This document shows, in pieces, positions 4,723-44,199 of a stretch of DNA of 64,000 bases (position 1 is the first letter of the stretch; the number at the start of each line of letters is the position of its first letter). This DNA is from Acetobacterium malicum subsp. dehalogenans DSM 11527. GTDB lineage: Bacteria > Bacillota > Clostridia > Eubacteriales > Eubacteriaceae. Where the stretch lies: the NCBI RefSeq assembly GCF_000472665.1, contig NZ_AXAC01000006.1:62479-126478 (forward strand), written 5' to 3'. The notes beneath the pieces were generated by a model, which was not told where the DNA came from, did no database searches, and was given only the letters and a program-made list of their open reading frames with translations. Both the position numbers and the translations under genes were made by a program.

Positions 4723-6099
4723 TCACATCTCATTGATATATTTATTTATTAAAAGATTAGCCGTAGATTGACTGAGCCCCATTTTTTTAGCAATAATCCG
4801 GCTCGACTTGTATTTCGCATAAAGCTTAATGACCGTGCGCTTTTTAAATTCTTCAACATTAAAACATTCCTCATCGAACTCTTCGATGTCTTCCTCCTGA
4901 TCCAGGTACTGTAGAAAAAGACTTTCATTAACAATGATCTTGTCTGACAATATGCACATGCGTTCAACTGCATTTTTTAATTGCCGCACATTTCCCGGCC
5001 AGTCGTAACTGATAAAATAAGAAAGAATTGCTTTGCCGAATATTTTTTTGGTATTATAGCGTCTATTAAAATCATTTAAAAAATGGGTTACCAGCAGCAG
5101 AATATCATCTTTTCGCTGACGCAACGGCGGCAGAATAATTTTCGCCGTATTGAGCCGCCAGTAAAGATCACTCCGGAATTTCTTTTCTTTGATGGCCTGA
5201 ATCAATTTTTGATTGGTGGCGGCAATGATCCGGATATTGACATGTTCCGGTTTGTTACTGCCCACTGGAATAAAGCGCTGGTTTTCCAGCACATCCAGAA
5301 TTTTCACCTGCATTTTAGGCGATAAGTCCCCGATTTCATCCAGGAAAATGGTACCGCCATCGGCATCTTTCAGTAAACCGGTTTTACCTTTTACATTGGC
5401 ACCGGTGAAGGCTCCAGGCATATAACCAAAAAGTTCACTCTCAAACAAGCCATCAGGAATCGCGGCACAATTAATGGCAATAAACGGTTTATGACTCCGG
5501 CGGCTCTCATTATGAACAGTTTGGGCGATATAGCTTTTGCCGGTTCCGCTTTCCCCTAAAATCAGCAGATTACAGTCGGATTTGGCAATTTTTTCCAGAT
5601 CGCTGAGGCATTGTTTGAATAATTTACTCTTTCCGATAATTTGATCTGAAAACTCCAGATCGATGGTTTCAATGGGATTGCGGACGTCACGATAACTTAA
5701 ATCGACTGACCGGATATTATCCAGTGAGGTTGAAACCATAAATTCAAACTCATTATTATCATCGTAAACCGGCACATTGATACAGATAATGGTGCGATTG
5801 GTTTTGTAATATATATTTTCCGTGACGATGGCCTGGTGGGAGACCTTGGTCAGATCAAAACTATAGGGATCCCAGAGCCCTTCTTTTATTTTTTTGCTGT
5901 CTTTTTGGACAATGTCTTCCGGTTTGATGCCATAAAGCCGGGTAACCGCGGGATTGGCATAGACCACCTTGCCATCTTTGTCGAGGACATAGATTTCGGT
6001 AAATGAATTTTCGAGAATCTTTAACAGCGTTTCATGGGGGATTGACTTTAAATAGTCATCATACGCAGGGGTGTTGACAGTTATGGATAGATCGATCAT
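4723..6099 (-). CDS. PAS-domain sigma-54-dependent activator (AAA+)
   Basis: This 458-residue protein is an enhancer-binding protein that remodels sigma-54 RNA polymerase. It has an N-terminal PAS-like sensor domain (about 25-135) and an AAA+ domain with Walker A GESGTGKS at 182-189. The sigma-54 contact loop GAFTGA is at 229-234 and Walker B at 250-255. A C-terminal helix-turn-helix lies near 425-455. No receiver domain is present, so the signal is probably a small molecule or redox state read by PAS. It sits just downstream of mttB, and the mttB/BCCT gap holds two sigma-54 promoters with inverted repeats. The likely role is therefore control of that methyltransferase regulon. The call is firm; the target is inferred from position. 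Confidence 0.93.
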   Translation of the reverse strand: MIDLSITVNTPAYDDYLKSIPHETLLKILENSFTEIYVLDKDGKVVYANPAVTRLYGIKPEDIVQKDSKKIKEGLWDPYSFDLTKVSHQAIVTENIYYKTNRTIICINVPVYDDNNEFEFMVSTSLDNIRSVDLSYRDVRNPIETIDLEFSDQIIGKSKLFKQCLSDLEKIAKSDCNLLILGESGTGKSYIAQTVHNESRRSHKPFIAINCAAIPDGLFESELFGYMPGAFTGANVKGKTGLLKDADGGTIFLDEIGDLSPKMQVKILDVLENQRFIPVGSNKPEHVNIRIIAATNQKLIQAIKEKKFRSDLYWRLNTAKIILPPLRQRKDDILLLVTHFLNDFNRRYNTKKIFGKAILSYFISYDWPGNVRQLKNAVERMCILSDKIIVNESLFLQYLDQEEDIEEFDEECFNVEEFKKRTVIKLYAKYKSSRIIAKKMGLSQSTANLLINKYINEM

Positions 6100-6282
6100 A
6101 AGTTTCTCTTCTCTTTTTTTATATTTGTTAACGATATCATTCCCGGCCCAACAAAAGCATCAACTTAAAAAGATCTTTGATAGTGTCGTGTCTCAATGCT
6201 GCTGTTGCCGCTCAAATGACTGATGGAGTCATTATAACATTTTTTTTTATTTTTACAAATCGCACCACTGGCAAAACAAAAA

Positions 6283-6308
6283 AATCCACAGGCCAAAACC
6301 TGTGGATT
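6283..6308 (-). terminator. Intrinsic terminator of mttB
   Basis: Perfect 10-bp stem (AATCCACAGG at 6283-6292 with CCTGTGGATT at 6299-6308) around a six-base loop. On the minus strand it is followed by a run of T from 6284 leftward. It should end the mttB transcript before the activator gene. Confidence 0.85.
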
Positions 6309-6334
6309 ACAGACTATCAAAAAAGATACCCCAG

Positions 6335-6430
6335 TACCGACAATTGTTACATCATGTTGTACGCATCGGAGCGGACACGGCAAAGCCTGTCCGATTCCGC
6401 GGCGAACAACAGATTAACAATTGGTCGGTA
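6335..6430. repeat. 96-base imperfect palindrome after mttB
   Basis: The outer arms 6335-6349 and 6415-6430 pair except for one bulged base. Inner arms 6351-6364 with 6402-6414, and roughly 6366-6380 with 6386-6400, continue the pairing nearly to the centre. The resulting long hairpin starts 20 bases past the mttB stop codon. It could protect the 3' end, act as an extra terminator, or be a palindromic mobile-type repeat. I found no second copy in the window. The rest of 6100-6450 holds only this hairpin and the terminator at 6283-6308. Confidence 0.75.
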
Positions 6431-6450
6431 CGGTAGTTTAGCGACAACCT

Positions 6451-7866
6451 TTATTTAAGTCTTAATTCTGGGGGTAGCAGTTCTTCGATCATTTTTATTT
6501 GCGCCTTATCCAGTTCTAATGGAACATAGTCAGCGATTCTCTTTTTCCAGGCCTGGGTGGCTCGGTCCCGGATACTGATGGAATGCTCCTCTTTTTCCCA
6601 ATTGGAATAAGCTTTGCGGTTGGCAAATTCCGGGAAAATGAAATCATGTTTGTAGGTTTTTGTGGTTCTGGCAATATAATTGGCGGAATGTTCGATCTTT
6701 TCCATTTTGTCCATACACAGGAATTCGTCACTGAAATCAACACTTTTTAAAAAGCGTCCGGATATTCTATAGGTATCCTCATCAAGCATGAATTTTTCAT
6801 AGCCCAGGGTATTAAAGGAATCCATGATGCCTGCCAGCATATAGGATACTTCCGGTTCACACATTAAAGCCGAGAGACCAACCATGGTTGATTCCCGTCC
6901 CGACTGGTAATCATCATCCTTAGCATCGGAGAGGCAGCCGTGGGATCGTTTGGGTAAGCCATAGAAATTGGCCAGTTCACTTTCAACAAACCATTCAACG
7001 CTGGTTTCGGCCCCGCCGCAGACACAGAGACTATAGCGCAGATCGGTTTGCAGGGCGCTGAACTGGTAAATGACTGGGGCTCCCGGATTGACCAGCTGCG
7101 TAGCCACAATGCCGGCCAGCCGCTCGGTATTGTTCTGAATGATATTGCCCGCTAAAGCCGGCGGTCCGGTCAGTCCCGCCAGACCCACTCCGGCGATACA
7201 GCAAACTTGCCCATTTCTGGCATATTCGATCAGGGTTTCGCACATATGACGATCCCAGGCAAAAGGTGGGGCACTGGTAACTAGGGTTGACATCAACACC
7301 TGGTCATGAATATCATTAAATTCTTGGGCCAGTTTTATCGTCCGGCGGCAAACTTCCGCACTGCCGTTTAAACCGGCCAAAGGTTTGTCGCTATACATCA
7401 TCGGCGCCAGGGTCATAAAATCGGTCCGGTAAGGCACCGGAACATCGTGGGGGTAAAGCAGCTCACAATCAATGATGTCAATCACATCGCTGGTATGAAA
7501 GAGTTTTATGAAATTGACAAAGTCATCAGCCGTGGCCGGTCGGTGGATGCCTTCCTGCAGGACATTGATGGGACCCAACGATGATTGTCCGACAGTTTTC
7601 TGCTGGACGGTGCCAATCGGAATTTTTTTACCCCGGGAAACATGCACAAAATTACGGGGACAGGACGCCAGCGCTTCATTGACCAGCTCCTCGGTGATAT
7701 AGACGATCTCGCCGTCAACTTTTAATCCTCGCGCTTTAAATAGCTCCAGCAATTCAGCTGAACAGAAACGAATCCCTTTAGTCTTTAATAAATGTAAGGA
7801 TTTTTCGTGAATTAATTCGACTGACTCTTTTGTAACAAAGTTTCTCGTGTAGTGTTTCTTATACAT
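6451..7866 (-). CDS. mttB: MttB-family (trimethylamine/betaine) corrinoid methyltransferase, non-pyrrolysine
   Basis: This 471-residue protein belongs to the MttB superfamily, whose members move a methyl group from a quaternary or tertiary amine to a corrinoid protein. Archaeal MttB needs pyrrolysine at an in-frame UAG. This frame is open throughout, so it belongs to the non-Pyl group, which includes the glycine betaine, proline betaine and carnitine enzymes. Diagnostic stretches include the N-terminal region with GIRFCSAELLELF and the Gly-rich GVGLAGLTGPPALAG. Its partners, two BCCT transporters, a corrinoid protein and a methyl-THF methyltransferase, lie on the opposite strand. AGGAGG sits nine bases before the ATG, and a -24/-12 promoter precedes it. 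Glycine betaine is the most likely substrate, but sequence alone cannot separate it from other betaines. Confidence 0.93.
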   Translation of the reverse strand: MYKKHYTRNFVTKESVELIHEKSLHLLKTKGIRFCSAELLELFKARGLKVDGEIVYITEELVNEALASCPRNFVHVSRGKKIPIGTVQQKTVGQSSLGPINVLQEGIHRPATADDFVNFIKLFHTSDVIDIIDCELLYPHDVPVPYRTDFMTLAPMMYSDKPLAGLNGSAEVCRRTIKLAQEFNDIHDQVLMSTLVTSAPPFAWDRHMCETLIEYARNGQVCCIAGVGLAGLTGPPALAGNIIQNNTERLAGIVATQLVNPGAPVIYQFSALQTDLRYSLCVCGGAETSVEWFVESELANFYGLPKRSHGCLSDAKDDDYQSGRESTMVGLSALMCEPEVSYMLAGIMDSFNTLGYEKFMLDEDTYRISGRFLKSVDFSDEFLCMDKMEKIEHSANYIARTTKTYKHDFIFPEFANRKAYSNWEKEEHSISIRDRATQAWKKRIADYVPLELDKAQIKMIEELLPPELRLK

Positions 7867-35840: not shown

Positions 35841-36920
35841 TTAAATAATTATCTTCACCGTATTTCGGCCCGCTTCATTGGTAACGGTTAAGGATTTGGC
35901 ATAATTATGAATAATCGCCAGGGACAGTTCATTTTCCGCTGCTTTTTCCAGTTCATAGGTGTCGCCGTCAAAGCTGACCTGGATGGTGACCTCACCACTT
36001 AAATCCGAATACTCCACCAGAAGTGCGACGGTGGCCTTGGGAAACTCCCGCAGCAGGATTGCCAGGATCAACTCCTCACAAACCAGTTGGACATTCATAA
36101 TCTGGCGATCGGTAAACATCTGCTTTTTGAGGAAGGTTTCGATTTTGGCATTGAGTTCATAGAGATCAAAACCGCTGCCCGCTGCAATATATTCAAAGGA
36201 TGAAATTTTTCGGATGAACGCCCGCGTCTTGGCCTTCTGGGGATGATCAAAAATCTCTGCCGGCGATCCGTCTTCGTAGATCCCCTTTTCATCCATATAA
36301 AACACCCGACTGGAGACATCCCGGGCAAACTTCATCTCATGGGTCACAATCATCATTGTCATCCCGGTTGATGCCAGCTTGCGGATAACCCCCAGTACCT
36401 CACTGACCATGGTGGGATCCAGGGCCGAAGTGGGTTCGTCAAACAAAACAATCTCCGGCTTCATCGCCAGGGTTCGGGCGATCGCCGCCCGCTGTTTCTG
36501 GCCGCCGGATAATTCATCGGGAAAGGCCAGGGCTTTTGATCGGAGCCCGACCATTTCCAGATAGGCCAACCCTTCATCATAGGCCTGTTGCCGGGGCACC
36601 TTCAATAAATTAACAGGTCCCAGCATCAGGTTTTCAATGATCATCAGATGGGAAAAGAGATTGAAAGACTGAAACACCATTCCCATTTTCTGGCGCAGGG
36701 CGGAGACATCGGCATTTTTAGCCAAGATATTCTGGCCATCAATGACGATCTCACCACTTGTCGGGGTTTCCAGCAAATTGATGCAGCGTAGAAAGGTTGA
36801 CTTCCCACAGCCCGATGGCCCGATGATCGAGATGACTTCGCCTTCTTTTATCTCGGTGCTGATATTTTCCAGCACCTGTAACGGGCCAAAACTTTTGGAT
36901 AGACCGTTGATCGTTATCAT
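35841..36920 (-). CDS. Polar amino acid ABC ATPase fused to a degenerate GHKL domain
   Basis: Residues 1-240 of this 359-residue protein are a GlnQ-type ATPase (Walker A GPSGCGKS 34-41, LSGGQ 137-141, Walker B 157-163). Residues 250-359 resemble an RsbW/SpoIIAB-like ATPase, with [14 protein letters not shown] as the N box, SFDGD as G1 and [14 protein letters not shown] as G2. The metal-binding Asn expected four residues after Glu283 is Ala287, so this GHKL domain probably lacks kinase activity and may only bind a partner. GlnQ proteins normally end near residue 245. The gene overlaps the upstream permease fusion by four bases. It belongs with the phosphatase and the other GHKL proteins up to 43847. 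Confidence 0.85.
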
Positions 36921-39223
36921 TTCGTCACCTCCAGCGGATTCACTTCCGGATCGACAATCCCTTTGACCACCCGTTTCCGGCGTTTAGGATCGATCTGAAC
37001 TTCGATTTTTCCCAACACGATAATAAACAGGTAGGTGATCACAAAGTAGATAAAAGCGGTCACAAACAGCGGGAAAAAAGCATCAAAGGTCCGGCTCCGG
37101 ATAATGTCTGTCATTTTCGTCAAATCCTGAATGGCAATATAACCGACCACCGAAGTCATCTTTACCATACTGATAAATTCACCCTTGAAAATCGGCAGAA
37201 TGTGACGCAGTGCCTGGGGCAAGGTTACCTTGAAAAAGCTGGATACCCTGGTAAATCCCAGCGCATAGGCCGCCTCCAGCTGTCCTTTGTCAGTGGCATC
37301 GATGGCGGTTCTAAAGATCTCCGCCGAATAGGCGGCAAAGTTAATCGAGAAACCCACCACGGCAATGAGGATCGGGTGAATATCCACTGATGCAAACAAA
37401 ATGTAATAGAGGATCATCAGGGTTAAGACAATTGGCACCCCCTGAATCAGTCGAATATAAACAATCGCCAGTCCGGATACGATCTTTAACCGGGACTTGC
37501 GCATGGCACAGATTACGGCGCCCAGGAAGCTGCCAAAGAATAGCGACAGCATCGAAATAACAATAGTTGTCCAAAGCCCTTCTAACACCAGCTTGTAGCG
37601 GTCTTCGACAATAAATGTTTTGTTAAAGCTGTCCTGAAGCGAGGCAAAAAAACTGCCCGTACCAGTCTGGCTTTGATTGGTCACAACCGTTCCCTCAACA
37701 TTCTCGCTATTTCCGGAATACATGCTTTTTCGCACCAGGACACTGTTATGCAGCACCACGTAGGCATCACTGTAGAGAACTTCCTGGCCGCGTTCGTCGG
37801 TTTTGAAAAAGTCCGAAATGATCACATCGCCCTTGCCGCTTTGGAGCGCCGGGATCATTGCCGCATAATCCATGGTGATGATTTCAAAATCCAGATTAGC
37901 ATAGCTGGCGAAACGCTTCATAAATTCAATATCATAACCGGTTAGTTGGCCATTTTCATAATAGTTCATCGGTTCGGTTAATCCGTTGGTAATAATGGTG
38001 ATCTTTTTCTCCGGGTTTAGCGGTTTGGGAATATCTGGCATTACCCCACCAGTATTACTTATCCACCGCTCAACCATCGCTGCAGCGGTGCCATCCGCCT
38101 GAAATTGACCGATAAAGGTATTAAGCTGGTCATTTAGCTTTGCATCCTCCAAACTCACCACGGCGGCAATCTCGATGTTTCCCAGTTCTTCCTCCAGCTT
38201 AACCAGATCCGGATTGCTTAATAGAATCCGATCAACCCCGGAGCTGTCATAGATCACCGCTGTGACCTTACCGCTTTTTAATGCTGCCACGCCATCCATA
38301 AACTGAGTGAAATAGGAAATATCAGCGTTGGGCATGAATTCTTTGGCGACCTCTTCCGGTGGGGTTCCTTCCGGTACGCCAATGATGTAGCCAGCCTTGT
38401 TCAGATCACTGCTACTGCTTATCGTCTGCTGACTTGTCTGGCCCCCTTCAGTTGCCTCGATCCGATCTTCCATAACAACAAAAACCTGAGGATTGGGAAA
38501 ATAGCCAGCTGTAAAATCGACTTTTTGAGACCGTTCCGGGGTATTATACATGGCTGCAATCACATCGCTCGTTCCCGATTGGAGACTATCAATCATTGCT
38601 TTGAAGTCCATGTCCTGAAATTCAACTTGCATCCCCAATTCATAAGCAATACGGCTCATCAATTCGACATTCATGCCGGTCAGCTCCCCATCCTTGACAA
38701 AACATCGGGGCTCGGTCAGGGATGTTACGGCAACCCTCAACACCGGGCCGCTGGCATTTTTGGGTACGTCAACGATTTCATATGCCCCGCCTTCTTCCGG
38801 AAACCAGTGCGCTTTAATTTCATCTACGGTACCATCACTTAAATATCTGTTCAACACCCCATTAATCTTTTGATTAAGCTCAGTATTCTCTTTTTTAAGA
38901 GCCATCGCGGTTACTTCATCGGTCAATGGCTCTGACCAAATCGTCGTTCCTTCGTTATTTTTAATAAAATTTTGGGCCGTTGCATAATCCATGATGGCAT
39001 AGTCAATTTTTCCCGCCATCATCGCGGCCGACTCATCGACATAATTGTTGAAACGGCTGATTTCTGCCTCAGGGTATTTTTCGGGGGCCAGTGATTCACT
39101 CAATGTTCCAATCATCGTTCCGATTTTTGCCGTTTCCACCGGCGGAAGGGGTGCTACCGTCTGACTGCATCCGGCTAGCAATAATGTCATCAATACGCAC
39201 AAGCCTACAAAAATGCGTTTCAT
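36917..39223 (-). CDS. Lipoprotein with split substrate-binding domains fused to an ABC permease
   Basis: This 768-residue protein starts with a lipoprotein signal (LLLAGC, Cys19). Three binding-protein segments follow. The first (about 25-145) is only the C-terminal half of an SBP_bac_3 fold. The second (about 155-395) is complete. The third (about 405-535) is mainly the N-terminal half. A HisM/GlnP-type permease (about 550-750, with the EAA loop [14 protein letters not shown]) ends the chain. GlnP-like fusions of binding domains and permease are known, but the half/complete/half order is odd. The first and third pieces could together form one fold. GGAGG precedes the ATG at 39223. Confidence 0.85.
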
Positions 39224-39346
39224 CAATCGCCTCCATTATATTTATTGTTAATTTTTGAAGAAATCCAAATGCTTTCTAACCAGTGTTAATCAAACAACTC
39301 CAGCCCTCGTTTTTTTATTCGATACGATAAAACGACCTATCTTAAT

Positions 39347-39757
39347 TTAGGATACCAATTTTTTAATGGTCAATATGTTCTCGTTCTCTTCAAAACGATA
39401 ATCTACCTCATCCATGCTTTTTTTGACCATCAACACACCCAACCCGCCGATTTGACGCTCTTCAGCCGTCAAGGTGATGTCCGGATCCGGGTTATCCAGA
39501 GGATTAAAGGGATTCCCCTGGTCAATAAACTGAATTTCGACCAGCGGGGGTTCACCATAGGAATCAAATTGAATGATCACGTTGCCGTCATCCGGGGCAT
39601 AGGCATAGTGGGCAATGTTTACATAAATTTCTTCCACAGCAAGATCAATTTGAAATATCATTTTCATACTGGCCCCCGCTGTCTCCAATTCGCTATCGAT
39701 AAATTCGAGTACCTTTGGCAGGTTATCTGTCGATGCATTAACAGTCAATCTTTTCAT
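39347..39757 (-). CDS. RsbW/SpoIIAB-like serine kinase domain (HATPase_c_2)
   Basis: This 136-residue stand-alone GHKL protein has an intact N box (VEEIYVNIAHYAY, Glu43 and Asn47), G1 (DQGNPF, Asp79 and Gly81) and G2 (GGLGVLMVKK). Relatives bind and phosphorylate STAS-domain partners and sequester sigma factors. Neither a STAS protein nor a sigma factor is in this block. Its ATG overlaps the stop codon of the 57-codon ORF (ATGA). It is the only canonical GHKL protein here, the other two being fused to transporters. Confidence 0.92.
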   Translation of the reverse strand: MKRLTVNASTDNLPKVLEFIDSELETAGASMKMIFQIDLAVEEIYVNIAHYAYAPDDGNVIIQFDSYGEPPLVEIQFIDQGNPFNPLDNPDPDITLTAEERQIGGLGVLMVKKSMDEVDYRFEENENILTIKKLVS

Positions 39758-39927
39758 CTTATCTGATCTCCTTTACTGTTGGTTAACAAATCCACTGAAA
39801 CTCCCATCACATCAATCGTTTTGATCGAGTGAAATCCTAGTCTCTGGCAAAAAATCTGATTGTCTTTAACATTACTGTTCACAAGATAAATGGGGCCGTC
39901 ACTGAACTCTTCAATAACATATTTCAT
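39754..39927 (-). CDS. 57-residue mini-protein resembling a GNAT C-terminal tail
   Basis: This short frame (MKYVIEEF ... GDQIR) is sealed on both sides by overlapping codons. Its ATG shares one base with the stop of the GNAT gene (TGATG), and its stop TGA overlaps the ATG of the RsbW-like gene. Such double coupling strongly suggests it is translated. NVKDNQIFCQRLGFHSIK resembles the last strand-helix element of GNAT acetyltransferases (N..A...Y...GF). It may be a detached GNAT tail that pairs with the neighbour at 39927-40478, or a small regulator. Confidence 0.7.
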   Translation of the reverse strand: MKYVIEEFSDGPIYLVNSNVKDNQIFCQRLGFHSIKTIDVMGVSVDLLTNSKGDQIR

Positions 39928-40478
39928 CAGTGCTCCAGGAATACTTCATTTCCCAGTTCAAAAAGGGTCACATTATCTTTTGACCAGATCGCTCTGGCAC
40001 CAAGAAATTTCATACTTTGACATCCTTCGGCTGTAATTGCAAAACAAAATACCCGCTCAATCAGATAGCCTTGGTTATGTTTATGCCTTAAATAATTCCA
40101 GAGTATTTCATGTAATCGCTTTGAGATGCCCTGATGTCGGAAGGATTCATCAACTGCCAAATCCAGGATCAGGATATTGTTTGGCCGTCCTTTTTCCAGT
40201 GGCAAAACTTCACGTACATCAAGGTTATCGTCAATGTACTCCTGTTCGAAAACAGCCCGCTGATAAACTGAAGCAGCGACACCAAAAAAACTGATAAAGC
40301 CCATCAGCGTATTCTCGGCATAAGCGGCAATAAGTCCTTCCTTAAACTTCAAAAACCGTTTTAACGCCATACCCTGGTTGGTCAAAATTTCATTTCCAAA
40401 AATCTTGCGGTCAAGGTCTAACGTCGCCTCAAAATCCTCGACCGTCAATTCCTGCCCAGCTCTGATGATTATATCCAT
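39927..40478 (-). CDS. GNAT acetyltransferase-like protein in the phosphatase/transporter block
   Basis: This 183-residue protein has the acetyl-CoA-binding element LAVDESFRHQGISKRLHEIL near residues 115-135. The start at 40478 follows GAGGAG four bases after the phosphatase stop; the longer frame to 40556 would overlap that gene. The final GNAT strand is weak in this protein, and the next ORF looks like that missing tail. The target is unknown; a phosphatase/kinase component or a transported amine would fit the setting. Confidence 0.8.
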   Translation of the reverse strand: MDIIIRAGQELTVEDFEATLDLDRKIFGNEILTNQGMALKRFLKFKEGLIAAYAENTLMGFISFFGVAASVYQRAVFEQEYIDDNLDVREVLPLEKGRPNNILILDLAVDESFRHQGISKRLHEILWNYLRHKHNQGYLIERVFCFAITAEGCQSMKFLGARAIWSKDNVTLFELGNEVFLEH

Positions 40479-40482
40479 CCTG

Positions 40483-42105
40483 CTACTCCTCAAGCTTAAA
40501 TCCGAGCATGGTGATATCATCAAACTGCGGTTCCGTGTCCGCAAACTCATCCACATCCGCTAAGATATCGGCGCACAGTGATTTTATATCATGCTCATCT
40601 TTTGAAGCAACCAATGTTTTCAGGCGTTCCAGTCCATAAAATTCATTTTTGGTATTATTCGCCTCGGGAATCCCATCGGTATACAAATAGATGATATCCC
40701 CTTTTTCAATTTGCGATTCATTCATCTTGTATTTGGCGGTCTCCATGCCAGCGCAGACAAAACCTTTTTTGCCGGTTAGCATTTCAACGGTGCCATCTTT
40801 TTTCCAGATAATCGCTGGATCATGTCCGGCATCGCACCACTGAAACACGCCTGTCTTGACATTAATAATGGCAATCAGCAAGGTGACAAACATGCCCTGT
40901 TCATTGTTGTTACACAAATTAATGTTGGCTTCGGTCATAACCTCATCGACTGGCAAACGTCTGAGCACCAGATCTTTAACCGTCGCTTTGGTCATCGCCA
41001 TAAATAACGCCGCCGGAACCCCTTTTCCGGATACATCACCGATGGTAATACAGAAGTGATCATCATCGACAAAAAAGAAATCGTAGAAATCGCCGCCCAC
41101 ATCTTTGGCGGCTCGCATCGATGCGTAAAGGGTAAATTCATGCCTGTCCGGATATTCAAAGTTCCGGGGCAACATGCCTTCCTGAATCAGGGTAGCAATC
41201 CGCAGCTCAGTTTCAATCCGCTCGCGCTCGGAGGTAACGCTGGTCAGCTCTTTAATGTAGCGGCTGATGTCGCTGGTCATTTTGTTGAAGGCTTCGGCCA
41301 GAATTTCGATTTCATCACCGGTTTTCACATCGATGTTCAAGGCGACAATCTCGCCTAGATTTTCGTCCAGGTTGATATTGACAAAATCGCTTGCGTTATC
41401 CACAATAACCTGTAGGGGATTGATGATTGATTTGTTTAAGAACAGCAGGTAAATCGTGATAAACAAAACAAATATCAGCAACGCAATGGACGATACTAAA
41501 ATGATATAGGCATTGAGGGTCGAATTAATATCCTTCATCGACATATCTGCCCCGACCACCAGGATCGGATTTCCCTGGGCATCCCGCATCACTTCAAAGG
41601 CACTGATCAGATAACCAAACTCACTATCATTTGAGATAATGGTCTTCGGCGCATCGGGATTGGTAAAGAGATTATTTGCCGCATCAATATCGGCTTGCGG
41701 ATAATAGTCGGTGCCCAAAAAATCACCCAGCACAAAATGACCTTCCATCCCTGGTTTGGTTCCCTGACCAAAAACTTTGAACCCATCCGCGGTAGGAACA
41801 TAGGCGTACAGATATTCAAGATGGTTCTGTTCCTGAATGATTTGAAATTGTTCAATCAATCGATCATAATCCGCATCCGTTTGCTGAGTTTCATAGTACT
41901 GATTCACCTTATCTGCCGGCACTAAAGCCGCCGCCGTGTGAACAAGTGATGAAATGTTCTCATCATACCGTTTAAACATTTCATCACGGTAACTGAAGTA
42001 GGAGATCAGAACAATAATCACACAAAGAAAAATGGCCAGAATCATACTAGCTGAGGCAAATTTTGTTTTAAGACTTATTCGACGAATAATTTTTGGTTCT
42101 TTCAT
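40483..42105 (-). CDS. SpoIIE-type PP2C phosphatase with extracellular sensor and HAMP
   Basis: This 540-residue protein has two membrane segments (about 15-40 and 190-215) enclosing an extracytoplasmic Cache-like sensor. A HAMP-type linker follows, then a PPM/SpoIIE phosphatase domain (about 290-540) with GGDFYDFF, TIGDVSGKGVPAALFM and the C-terminal LYTDGIPEA. Such phosphatases reverse RsbW-type phosphorylation. The start at 42105 follows AAGGTGG; the longer frame begins with GTG. It lies 14 bases downstream of the MATE/GHKL fusion gene. The sensor implies that an external signal sets the phosphorylation state of this block. Confidence 0.93.
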   Translation of the reverse strand: MKEPKIIRRISLKTKFASASMILAIFLCVIIVLISYFSYRDEMFKRYDENISSLVHTAAALVPADKVNQYYETQQTDADYDRLIEQFQIIQEQNHLEYLYAYVPTADGFKVFGQGTKPGMEGHFVLGDFLGTDYYPQADIDAANNLFTNPDAPKTIISNDSEFGYLISAFEVMRDAQGNPILVVGADMSMKDINSTLNAYIILVSSIALLIFVLFITIYLLFLNKSIINPLQVIVDNASDFVNINLDENLGEIVALNIDVKTGDEIEILAEAFNKMTSDISRYIKELTSVTSERERIETELRIATLIQEGMLPRNFEYPDRHEFTLYASMRAAKDVGGDFYDFFFVDDDHFCITIGDVSGKGVPAALFMAMTKATVKDLVLRRLPVDEVMTEANINLCNNNEQGMFVTLLIAIINVKTGVFQWCDAGHDPAIIWKKDGTVEMLTGKKGFVCAGMETAKYKMNESQIEKGDIIYLYTDGIPEANNTKNEFYGLERLKTLVASKDEHDIKSLCADILADVDEFADTEPQFDDITMLGFKLEE

Positions 42106-42119
42106 TGGTACCACCTTTT

Positions 42120-43847
42120 TTACAGAATAATAAGCAGATTATTGAATACCAGCGTTCGATTATAAGCAAAGGATTTTGCTTTCTTGCGAACAATCGATAC
42201 GCCCAGATAATCCAGGGCTTCATCGGGTTTTTCCGATTCTTCAAAGGGGTTATAGCTGGTGCTGTCGTCCCTGAGCCGAATGTAGATATCTTCTTCAAAT
42301 AGAGCAATTTTTATATGGATAAAATGGGATTTCCCATCATTAAAGCCGAAATTAATAATATTGGCCGCCAATTCTTCAATGGTCAAATTAATAAAATAAG
42401 CATTCTTACTGTCAATATCCAGCCGTTCGCAAAAAGCTTCGATCTCTTCGACACATTTCTCCAGCTCTTTAATGTCAGAAGAAAGGGTCGTTTCATATAT
42501 TTTATCCTTTGCTATAATGGGTTCCTTGAACAATAGTACGTTTCGGTACCCGCCCTGTTTCTTAAGCACCAGCGCTGCGACGAGCAGGATCACCATCGTT
42601 ACTGTTTCCGCTGACACAATCGCAAAAGCCGTTCCCATGACGCCAAAAACCGGAATAAACCAGGCCGAAAAGGCAATCAACAGTAAGAAGCCCCGCATAA
42701 AGTAAATAATCCCCGCCAGGGTTGGTCGCTTAATCGTCTGATAAAAATGCGCCATCACACAGTTAAAGCAGGTTTGTACCACCGCGAAAGCAAAGATTCG
42801 GATGGTCTGAGCCACCAGAGTTAGATTATCGGCTACCCCAAACATGGCCGCGATCGGTTCGGCGAAGATAAGTAACACCAATGCACATAAGGCACTGAGT
42901 AAAGCGGCCGTCTTCAACGACAAGCCCATGGTGTTATAAACCCCTTCAGTATCCTTTTCTCCGGCGAAAGTTGCCACCAGCGGCGCTAAGGCCAATGAAA
43001 TCCCATCAAATATGGCATAGGCAAACAACGAGACATTAAAAAGGATATTATAGACGGCCAGTCCTCCAACCCCCACTGTCACACTTAGCAGATTATTAAT
43101 AATGACAAGGGTGATCCCCTGATAAATAAAGGCCGATGCAATCCCGAAGCCGCCGTGAAAAAGTTGATAGCCAGCTTTGAGACTAAGGGAAGTCTGACAC
43201 AATTTGAGGTGATTATGCTTTTTAAAAAAGTGAAGGGAGTAAACGGCAATCGCACCCAATTGTCCAATAACCATGGCCAGAGCCCCGCCGAACACCCCCA
43301 TGTTTAGTCCAAAGATGAAGATCAGGTCCAACCCCAGATTTACGACCACTGAAACGCTGATACCCAAAGTCGATAGAAACGGATCGGCGTCACTGCGAAT
43401 CATCAGCGACATCACTGGAGCTAGAATGAATATTGGGGCGGTTATTACAATCGGCCACATATAATCCCCGGCGGCAGCAATACCTGCCCCCCCGGTGAGA
43501 CCTATAATTTCTGGTAAAAAAAACATTCCCAATACTGCAATAATCAATCCCACTGCCGCCGCAAAAAACATCGCCTGGGTAAAATTGATCCTGACCCCAT
43601 CTTTATCCTCGGCACCGATGGACTCCGATACTTTCAGGGATCCGCCGACCCCGAAGGCGTAACCGAACAGGTTGTAAACCATATATACCGGCATTGAAAC
43701 TGCCAGTACCGACAAACCAACCTCACCAAAGGCATTTCCCAGAATGATGGCATCCACAAAGGTTCCCAGAACCACCCCGGCTGAGGAAAGGATGCTGTTG
43801 ATGACAAATACCCGAAAAGCCTTGTTAACAAAATGTTGATTATTCAT
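42120..43847 (-). CDS. MATE efflux transporter fused to an RsbW-like GHKL domain
   Basis: The first 440 residues or so of this 575-residue protein form a 12-segment MATE pump. Residues 453-575 form a GHKL domain with N box EELAANIINFGF (Glu492, Asn496), a G1-like RDDSTSYNPF in which Gly is Ser, and a G2-like YLGVSIVRK. MATE proteins normally end at 440-460 residues, so the domain is an addition. The fusion is continuous without a stop. It is the first gene of the block, followed by the SpoIIE-type phosphatase. A link between efflux activity and a phospho-switch is implied but unproven. GAGGG precedes the ATG at 43847. Confidence 0.9.
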   Translation of the reverse strand: MNNQHFVNKAFRVFVINSILSSAGVVLGTFVDAIILGNAFGEVGLSVLAVSMPVYMVYNLFGYAFGVGGSLKVSESIGAEDKDGVRINFTQAMFFAAAVGLIIAVLGMFFLPEIIGLTGGAGIAAAGDYMWPIVITAPIFILAPVMSLMIRSDADPFLSTLGISVSVVVNLGLDLIFIFGLNMGVFGGALAMVIGQLGAIAVYSLHFFKKHNHLKLCQTSLSLKAGYQLFHGGFGIASAFIYQGITLVIINNLLSVTVGVGGLAVYNILFNVSLFAYAIFDGISLALAPLVATFAGEKDTEGVYNTMGLSLKTAALLSALCALVLLIFAEPIAAMFGVADNLTLVAQTIRIFAFAVVQTCFNCVMAHFYQTIKRPTLAGIIYFMRGFLLLIAFSAWFIPVFGVMGTAFAIVSAETVTMVILLVAALVLKKQGGYRNVLLFKEPIIAKDKIYETTLSSDIKELEKCVEEIEAFCERLDIDSKNAYFINLTIEELAANIINFGFNDGKSHFIHIKIALFEEDIYIRLRDDSTSYNPFEESEKPDEALDYLGVSIVRKKAKSFAYNRTLVFNNLLIIL

Positions 43848-44199
43848 TATGCCCTCTCTCATTGCCTCTTTCTTAACGATAATAAACTGAATCCAAAGGT
43901 GCGGTAAAACGATCTATACTAAATTTTTTGGTTATCAAACAATTCTTCCGCTGATCATTAGATAATGATTAGTCGCAAACAAAATTGCTTAAGCAGAATA
44001 AAGTTATACGAAGCTATTATAGCATATAAAGGACTTTGATTGTCGAACATTTCTTGAATATGTTACCAGTATTTTTGAAAAAAACTCCATTATTTTAAAA
44101 AAATAAATCAACATCTATATTAGAATTTCTTAATAAATTCTTAATCAAGAATCATTTCAAGATGTACTTAAGTATTCCCATGTATATTATAAACAAGCA

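Follow-up and report, generated by a model that had tools for sequence, protein, structure and literature searches.

A candidate partner-switching module with RsbW-like domains fused to transporters in Acetobacterium malicum

Introduction

Partner switching is taught as a mechanism for freeing sigma factors, and the exceptions known to us act on signalling enzymes. Here, we analysed a block of seven open reading frames (ORFs) in a 64,000-nucleotide stretch of DNA (the window) on contig G000:C35 of the 4.05-Mb, 76-contig genome of Acetobacterium malicum subsp. dehalogenans DSM 11527, in which RsbW-like GHKL domains are joined to transporters beside a SpoIIE-type phosphatase and a free RsbW-like kinase. 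In our judgement, the block is rather probably a partner-switching module that has transporters as its effectors and no sigma factor. With the RsbU-RsbV-RsbW and SpoIIE-SpoIIAA-SpoIIAB systems of sigma-B and sigma-F it shares a SpoIIE-type PP2C phosphatase, a GHKL kinase whose motifs are intact and, if the candidate encoded in trans is its partner, a STAS protein bearing the conserved Ser. Unlike these systems, the block is devoid of a sigma factor and carries extra RsbW-fold domains on transporters, partly without ATP-site residues, and the candidate STAS protein is encoded at another locus in the genus of the window.

In SiaABCD of Pseudomonas aeruginosa, what the switch controls through direct binding is an enzyme and not a sigma factor (PMC7647112). 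This system has in common with the block a membrane PP2C phosphatase, a kinase and, in the proposed module, a STAS-like target, but its effector SiaD is a diguanylate cyclase and not a transporter, and SiaC is phosphorylated on Thr68 (PMC7647112). In MlaFEDB, the STAS protein MlaB binds and stabilises the ATP-binding cassette (ABC) ATPase MlaF, which requires MlaB for assembly and activity (PMC7367683). MlaF differs in carrying, instead of a GHKL domain, a short C-terminal extension of its own, and MlaB is not known to be subject to a phospho-switch. A partner switch acting on transporters is therefore plausible in the light of SiaABCD and MlaB. We know of no RsbW-like domain in the SiaABCD effector.

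On the transporter side, importers of the GlnPQ type consist of tandem substrate-binding protein (SBP) domains fused to a permease, plus a GlnQ-type ATPase, and both parts are present in the block. To our knowledge, GlnQ ends after the nucleotide-binding domain, whereas the protein in the window continues into a degenerate RsbW-fold domain. Cytosolic regulatory domains also occur on MetN, ModC and MalK, where they are of other folds (ACT-like, TOBE), and on the SulP/SLC26 transporters, whose STAS tail belongs to the same switch, but to its STAS side and not its RsbW side. The parts of the block belong to known families. In searches of open-licence papers we found no description of RsbW/GHKL-transporter fusions, in agreement with an earlier reading made from the sequence alone (the sequence-only reading), which knew of no described system of this make-up.

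Composition and conservation of the block

In the order of transcription on the minus strand, the block encodes MATE-GHKL, SpoIIE, GNAT, a 57-codon ORF, RsbW, SBP-SBP-permease and GlnQ-GHKL. This inventory, in one strand order, had been given by the sequence-only reading and was borne out by the ORF positions and the Pfam domain matches, with the GlnQ tail identified by hhalign, AlphaFold and Foldseek. Pfam supported every part, and the GlnQ tail was the sole weak call (12 bits, below the cut-off). The spacing had been described as short gaps, which is right for most of the block, where neighbours overlap or lie 4-5 nt apart (-4 to +5 nt), but not for a 120-nt gap between the RsbW gene and the SBP/permease gene. 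Predicted promoters and terminators in the block did not rise enough above shuffled sequences to delimit transcripts. The ORFs of the switch and of the transporters are:

42120..43862, minus strand: MATE-family transporter with a C-terminal RsbW-like GHKL domain (about residues 445-580), from Pfam, hhalign and conservation in the genus
40483..42114, minus strand: SpoIIE/PP2C serine phosphatase with an N-terminal transmembrane/extracellular sensor region and HAMP, from Pfam and sequence
39347..39757, minus strand: free RsbW-like serine kinase, from Pfam (HATPase_c_2, 4.6e-21) and alignments
36917..39226, minus strand: lipoprotein with tandem family-3 SBP domains fused to an amino-acid-type ABC permease (GlnP-like), from Pfam and relatives
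35841..36920, minus strand: GlnQ-type ABC ATPase (residues 1-240) with a degenerate C-terminal RsbW-like domain (residues 240-359), from Pfam, AlphaFold, Foldseek and alignment

The phosphatase matched SpoIIE (1.1e-46) and HAMP (4e-6), and its metal-binding motifs DVGGD, GDVSGKG and DDITM are all intact, as in the PP2C/SpoIIE phosphatases of partner switching. Similarly, the free RsbW has all ATP boxes of an RsbW/SpoIIAB-type kinase (N-box EEIYVN, G1 DQGNPF, G2 GGLG). The SBP/permease fusion matched SBP_bac_3 (2.6e-59) and BPD_transp_1 (2.9e-19), and the ATPase part of GlnQ matched ABC_tran (1e-35) and carries intact Walker A, signature and Walker B motifs, as in a GlnPQ-type importer. Two MatE domains are present in the MATE protein (Pfam MatE 3.1e-25, in two stretches), which also matched HATPase_c_2 above the cut-off (1.3e-6); an alternative ATG at 43847 (575 residues), used in three relatives, may be its true start.

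Ten other species of the genus have the genes of the block in the same order, most proteins being 80-98% identical and the GNAT protein down to 52%, and this arrangement is therefore not due to chance. The sequence-only reading had named the absence of the fusions from all relatives, or a lack of linkage there, as the finding that would count against it; in these ten species the fusions are both present and linked. A defence system was considered and rejected, the PADLOC matches being merely generic ATPase ones for the ABC subunit.

The fused RsbW-like domains

A PDB sequence search with the GlnQ-tail profile gave nothing meaningful, and fold comparison was therefore chosen for this tail. Its AlphaFold model (predicted local distance difference test, pLDDT, 90) has the element order E-H-H-E-E-H-E-E, and the top PDB folds found by Foldseek were SpoIIAB, RsbW and UsfX (E 8.7e-7, template modelling (TM) score about 0.7). 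All 15 matches with E below 0.001 were SpoIIAB, RsbW or SigF-type anti-sigma factor chains (e.g. UsfX). In the comparison of profiles, 14 diverse GlnQ tails aligned with 12 RsbW proteins at 98.8% (hhalign, E 6e-17), and the MATE tail aligned with the RsbW family at 99.7%; these values (98.8-99.7%) were obtained with distant members added, and alignments restricted to the genus gave 6-47%. As modelled, the GlnQ tail is an RsbW-like GHKL (Bergerat) domain despite its Pfam score below the cut-off.

The ATP-site motifs have been kept to different extents. In the GlnQ tails, the Glu-Glu pair is invariant and the N-box Asn is lost in 16 of the 18 aligned members, and in the tail of the window G1 and G2 are unrecognisable, so that the ATP-binding motifs of a GHKL kinase are missing. 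Having lost its ATP-site residues, the GlnQ tail is probably a docking or receiver domain and not a kinase. The same pattern of motif decay was seen in the N-terminal domain of SDF symporters. One SDF symporter with a degenerate N-terminal RsbW-like domain is encoded in the genome of the window, far from the block (C2:153231; L306 7014-8621, minus strand; Pfam SDF 1.3e-54, HATPase_c_2 0.026). Three superfamilies (MATE, GlnQ and SDF) are thus represented among the GHKL-tagged transporters of this genome, which number at least three. The C-terminal domain of the MATE protein is almost unchanged across the genus, and in the window it has an intact N-box (EELAANI) with altered G1 (DDSTSYNPF) and G2 (DYLG). 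In more distant MATE-GHKL proteins, the N-box Asn is often lost (e.g. EELGVVI in L120, EEILLLM in L125, EELLMIT in L128), and the motifs of the L119 protein are fully intact. To judge from these motifs, the trend across the GlnQ, SDF and many MATE domains is from a kinase to a non-catalytic binding domain.

The SBP-permease and GlnQ-GHKL genes vary in architecture. The number of tandem SBP copies ahead of the permease differs among species of the genus (36917-39226 in the window; L041-L053), as fused or separate genes, which suggests a fast-changing substrate range. Single chains of 916 and 1139 residues in L109 (7986-10736) and L115 (5974-9393) combine SBPs with permease, ATPase and GHKL tail, i.e., a whole ABC importer half in one protein. 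Small Cys-rich peptides with a double-glycine-type leader are encoded just upstream of SBP-permease/GlnQ-GHKL in L049 (6221-6409) and L052 (11279-11488), the latter after peptidase-type ABC exporters, and a link of the importer to a bacteriocin or a ribosomally synthesised and post-translationally modified peptide (RiPP) is possible.

Linkage of the fused transporters to switch genes

Among 398 genomes sampled across the phylum, nine MATE-GHKL loci lay outside the genus, and SpoIIE was found within 10 kb of each (chance about 1e-14 under an independence model), and in the eight of these neighbourhoods that were read in detail STAS was found in four and RsbW in four. Outside the genus, nine of the sampled genomes contained GlnQ-GHKL, in almost every case together with SBP and permease. 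SpoIIE lay within 10 kb of GlnQ-GHKL in 2 of 13 loci and within 22 kb in 5 of 13, compared with 0.4 and 0.8 expected in a test that ignores clustering and contig ends. Linkage to the switch genes is weaker for GlnQ than for MATE, and in the search for co-occurrence of MATE-GHKL, GlnQ-GHKL and SpoIIE for which the sequence-only reading had called, SpoIIE thus accompanied all of the MATE loci but few of the GlnQ loci within 10 kb.

We also scanned the named genomes around RsbW. Twenty-six of 80 loci carried a GHKL-fused transporter within 10 kb (MATE in 20, GlnQ-type ABC in 5, SDF in 4 and EamA in 1), a share that may be inflated since the query alignment held two MATE-GHKL-cluster proteins. MATE genes occurred in 23 of the loci and were GHKL-fused in 20 of them.

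The clearest cluster, with all genes on one strand, was found in Lachnospiraceae UBA7160 (DKWE01000127.1; L209). It begins with STAS-APH, STAS, MATE-GHKL, GH3, SpoIIE, an HD protein and RsbW, and continues with SBP-SBP-permease, GlnQ-GHKL, SDF-GHKL and a second MATE-GHKL; its GlnQ-GHKL, RsbW and SpoIIE are 53%, 56% and 34% identical to those of the window. In Synergistaceae (L228, L246), SpoIIE/RsbW is followed by SBPs, permease and GlnQ-GHKL. L246 also encodes an EamA-type transporter of 599 residues with a C-terminal degenerate RsbW-like domain (5678-7477, plus strand), with STAS on one side and a SpoIIE-RsbW fusion on the other. Searching with the SDF-GHKL domain showed that this fusion is spread across the phylum and adjoins STAS and/or SpoIIE in L311, L312, L313 and L317. 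An EamA protein beside RsbW in L217 (589 residues) was not counted, as there is no GHKL tail at its end.

These loci bear on whether the block is one system or two unrelated neighbours, with MATE-GHKL/SpoIIE/GNAT/RsbW forming one system and SBP-permease/GlnQ-GHKL another that would answer to a different STAS protein or ligand. Such a division would fit the 120-nt gap and a 3.8-kb insert ahead of the SBP gene in one of the ten relatives (L049), as well as the distribution of the genes: GlnQ-GHKL is present in 14 of the 19 genomes of the genus, four genomes (G005, G008, G014 and G016) have the MATE cluster without it, and in two (G013 and G017) it is present with the MATE cluster elsewhere in the genome. 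Within the genus, the ABC part can thus be separated from the MATE/SpoIIE/RsbW part, and most GlnQ-GHKL loci outside the genus have no SpoIIE within 10 kb. These separations, the possible inflation of the RsbW scan, and the retained N-box of the MATE domain of the window, which might be an active kinase, all weigh against a single module in which the transporters are the effectors. On the other side, GlnQ-GHKL stands beside SpoIIE, RsbW and usually STAS in L209, L228, L246 and L277, which come from other families and another phylum, and near a SpoIIE-RsbW fusion in L114. We regard two unrelated neighbours as a fairly unlikely account of the block.

A likely STAS partner in trans

It had been noted from the sequence that neither a STAS protein nor a sigma factor is encoded here. 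This is true locally, but the genome carries an orphan STAS gene at C1:179772. It is one of four Pfam STAS matches in the genome; two others, on contig C31, adjoin a SpoIIAB-like match, and the fourth belongs to a STAS-RsbW-sigma operon (L055) separate from the block. The orphan STAS is the first gene of an operon with two GH3 genes and an ABC exporter pair (STAS-GH3-GH3-ABC exporter pair, L056). This operon is conserved in those members of the genus that were examined (L186, L187, L204, L205, L320, L322, L323 and L324), but the STAS of G014 (L321), which is more divergent, lacks this setting. In the STAS alignment, a Ser is conserved in the SSAGLR motif.

Several observations connect this orphan to the block. 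In two sister species, G013 and G017, rsbW lies directly upstream of the orphan-type STAS (L186, L187), and the MATE-GHKL/SpoIIE/GNAT1/GNAT2 cluster (L194, L195) is without rsbW. Where rsbW would stand in L195, the decayed remains of its start can still be read as KCVTGNDLADNFPAILKFIDAE; an rsbW start of relatives is KKLTVNASTDNLPKVLEFIDtE. Those members of the genus that have no RsbW/MATE cluster, namely G006 and the incomplete G018, also have no orphan STAS. In other families, STAS, GH3, MATE-GHKL and SpoIIE occur together in L128, and together with RsbW in L209, L224, L237, L241 and L251. Gene exchange and cluster conservation tie the orphan STAS at C1:179772 to the block as its likely partner. 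A sigma gene, as sigma-factor switching would call for, was neither present in the block nor recognised beside the STAS/SpoIIE/RsbW/transporter clusters examined.

Proposed mechanism and alternatives

The mechanism that we propose starts from the genes, folds, motif loss, conservation and linkage described above and adds to them, conditionally, binding, a direction of signalling, an effect on transport and a substrate. The SpoIIE phosphatase would perceive an external signal through its sensor part and so set the rate of STAS dephosphorylation, and the free RsbW would rephosphorylate the small STAS protein, supplied in trans from the STAS-GH3-GH3-ABC-exporter operon, at its conserved Ser. Dephosphorylated STAS would dock on the RsbW-like domains of the MATE transporter, the GlnQ ATPase and the unlinked SDF symporter, and the docking would gate transport allosterically, with no sigma factor involved. 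The loss of ATP-site residues in the GlnQ, SDF and many MATE domains is as expected of receivers that bind STAS and do not phosphorylate it. The sequence-only reading had the phospho-switch act on both efflux and uptake, which comparative genomics strongly favours, but the GlnQ domain, which looks catalytically dead, would take part as a receiver and not as a kinase. The presence of GH3 and GNAT genes suggests a small, probably amino-acid-derived or conjugated metabolite as the cargo; searching the literature by phrase for bacterial GH3 synthetases yielded no paper.

The architecture is also compatible with the reverse direction, in which the transporters would be sensors whose RsbW-like domains capture or release STAS or RsbW according to transport state or substrate occupancy. 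The switch would then be fed by the flux of nutrients or metabolites, with its output elsewhere (e.g. the GH3 operon). The kinase-like N-box of the MATE domain would suit such a role, and the clusters offer candidate outputs in GH3 and GNAT enzymes and STAS-APH proteins. We nevertheless consider this direction unlikely: the SpoIIE protein already owns a sensor region, four tagged families with opposite directions of transport are more readily explained by a common command than by a common report, and the degenerate ATP sites of the GlnQ and SDF domains speak against reporting by a kinase, though not against capture.

Quite improbable is a classical remote control, in which the free RsbW and SpoIIE would serve a distant STAS/sigma pair and the fused GHKL domains would be structural leftovers for dimerisation or stability, without signalling: a STAS-RsbW-sigma operon does exist in the genome and degenerate GHKL domains could serve dimerisation, but that operon (L055) has its own RsbW and STAS and was rejected as a target of the block, the orphan STAS family and not the sigma-linked one accompanies the RsbW/SpoIIE/MATE set in other genomes, and independent tagging of four superfamilies, repeatedly beside STAS/SpoIIE/RsbW, is hard to square with mere dimerisation.

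If the transporters are indeed effectors, the RsbW-type GHKL domain could be a recurrent receiver tag that links MATE, GlnQ-type ABC, SDF and EamA-type transporters to STAS phospho-switches without sigma factors. We hold it about evenly balanced whether such a class is general in Clostridia, Synergistaceae and their relatives, undescribed so far, and often accompanied by cargo-making GH3/GNAT/NRPS (non-ribosomal peptide synthetase) enzymes. Beside phosphatase, kinase and STAS genes, no fewer than four unrelated transporter families carry the RsbW side of the switch as a fusion, suggesting that bacteria switch transport itself by such fusions; if true, this would be a fast post-translational control of efflux and uptake, hitherto unrecognised. 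For studying the post-translational regulation of ABC importers and MATE pumps, the system offers defined soluble parts (STAS, RsbW, the PP2C domain and the fused domains). Gut Clostridia commonly carry orphan STAS and SpoIIE genes, for which the system would also supply a function.

Accompanying genes

Two further ORFs lie between the phosphatase and the free RsbW:

39927..40478, minus strand: GNAT-family acetyltransferase (GNAT1), from Pfam (Acetyltransf_1, 3.3e-5) and a position shared with relatives
39754..39927, minus strand: 57-codon ORF, C-terminal remnant of GNAT2, from identity to GNAT2 of relatives

The sequence-only reading had listed the 57-codon ORF as such. Seven species of the genus have a complete second GNAT (GNAT2, 198-202 residues) between GNAT1 and RsbW, and the ORF is 68-80% identical to its last 55-57 residues. 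The ORF is therefore a truncation remnant and not a new small gene, and by this comparison GNAT2 is truncated in the species of the window and its closest kin.

MATE-GHKL paralogues were found directly beside NRPS genes with condensation and AMP-binding domains in L190 (7748-11829) and L199 (3959-13782). In L202 (6569-14001), a STAS-RsbW pair stands beside an NRPS with two condensation-adenylation-thiolation (C-A-T) modules and a terminal reductase-like domain. The switch may thus govern natural-product synthesis and export too.

STAS is joined to an APH-like kinase domain in L188 (5818-7026), L124 (8436-10025), L117 (3096-5462) and L209 (257-1447). These STAS-APH proteins adjoin MATE-GHKL or GlnQ-GHKL genes; the L124 protein is joined to RsbW as well, and the C-terminal part of the L117 protein best matched TCAD9. 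The frequent GH3, GNAT and STAS-APH neighbours and, for the MATE-GHKL paralogues, the NRPS modules suggest that small metabolites are produced, exported and taken up again with the help of such modules.

In L196 (7088-8479) and L197 (6683-8107), proteins of 463-474 residues with an RsbW-like domain at their start are encoded downstream of a MATE-GHKL paralogue; in L196, this domain is followed by a weak GNAT-like match. A protein of about 200 residues with an RsbW-like LLAEEL helix motif recurs beside STAS/RsbW genes (L212 9024-9620, L228 6636-7259, L246 3723-4370 and L124 4216-4800), and its L124 member had no Pfam match. A hydrogenase operon is also present in the genome of the window.

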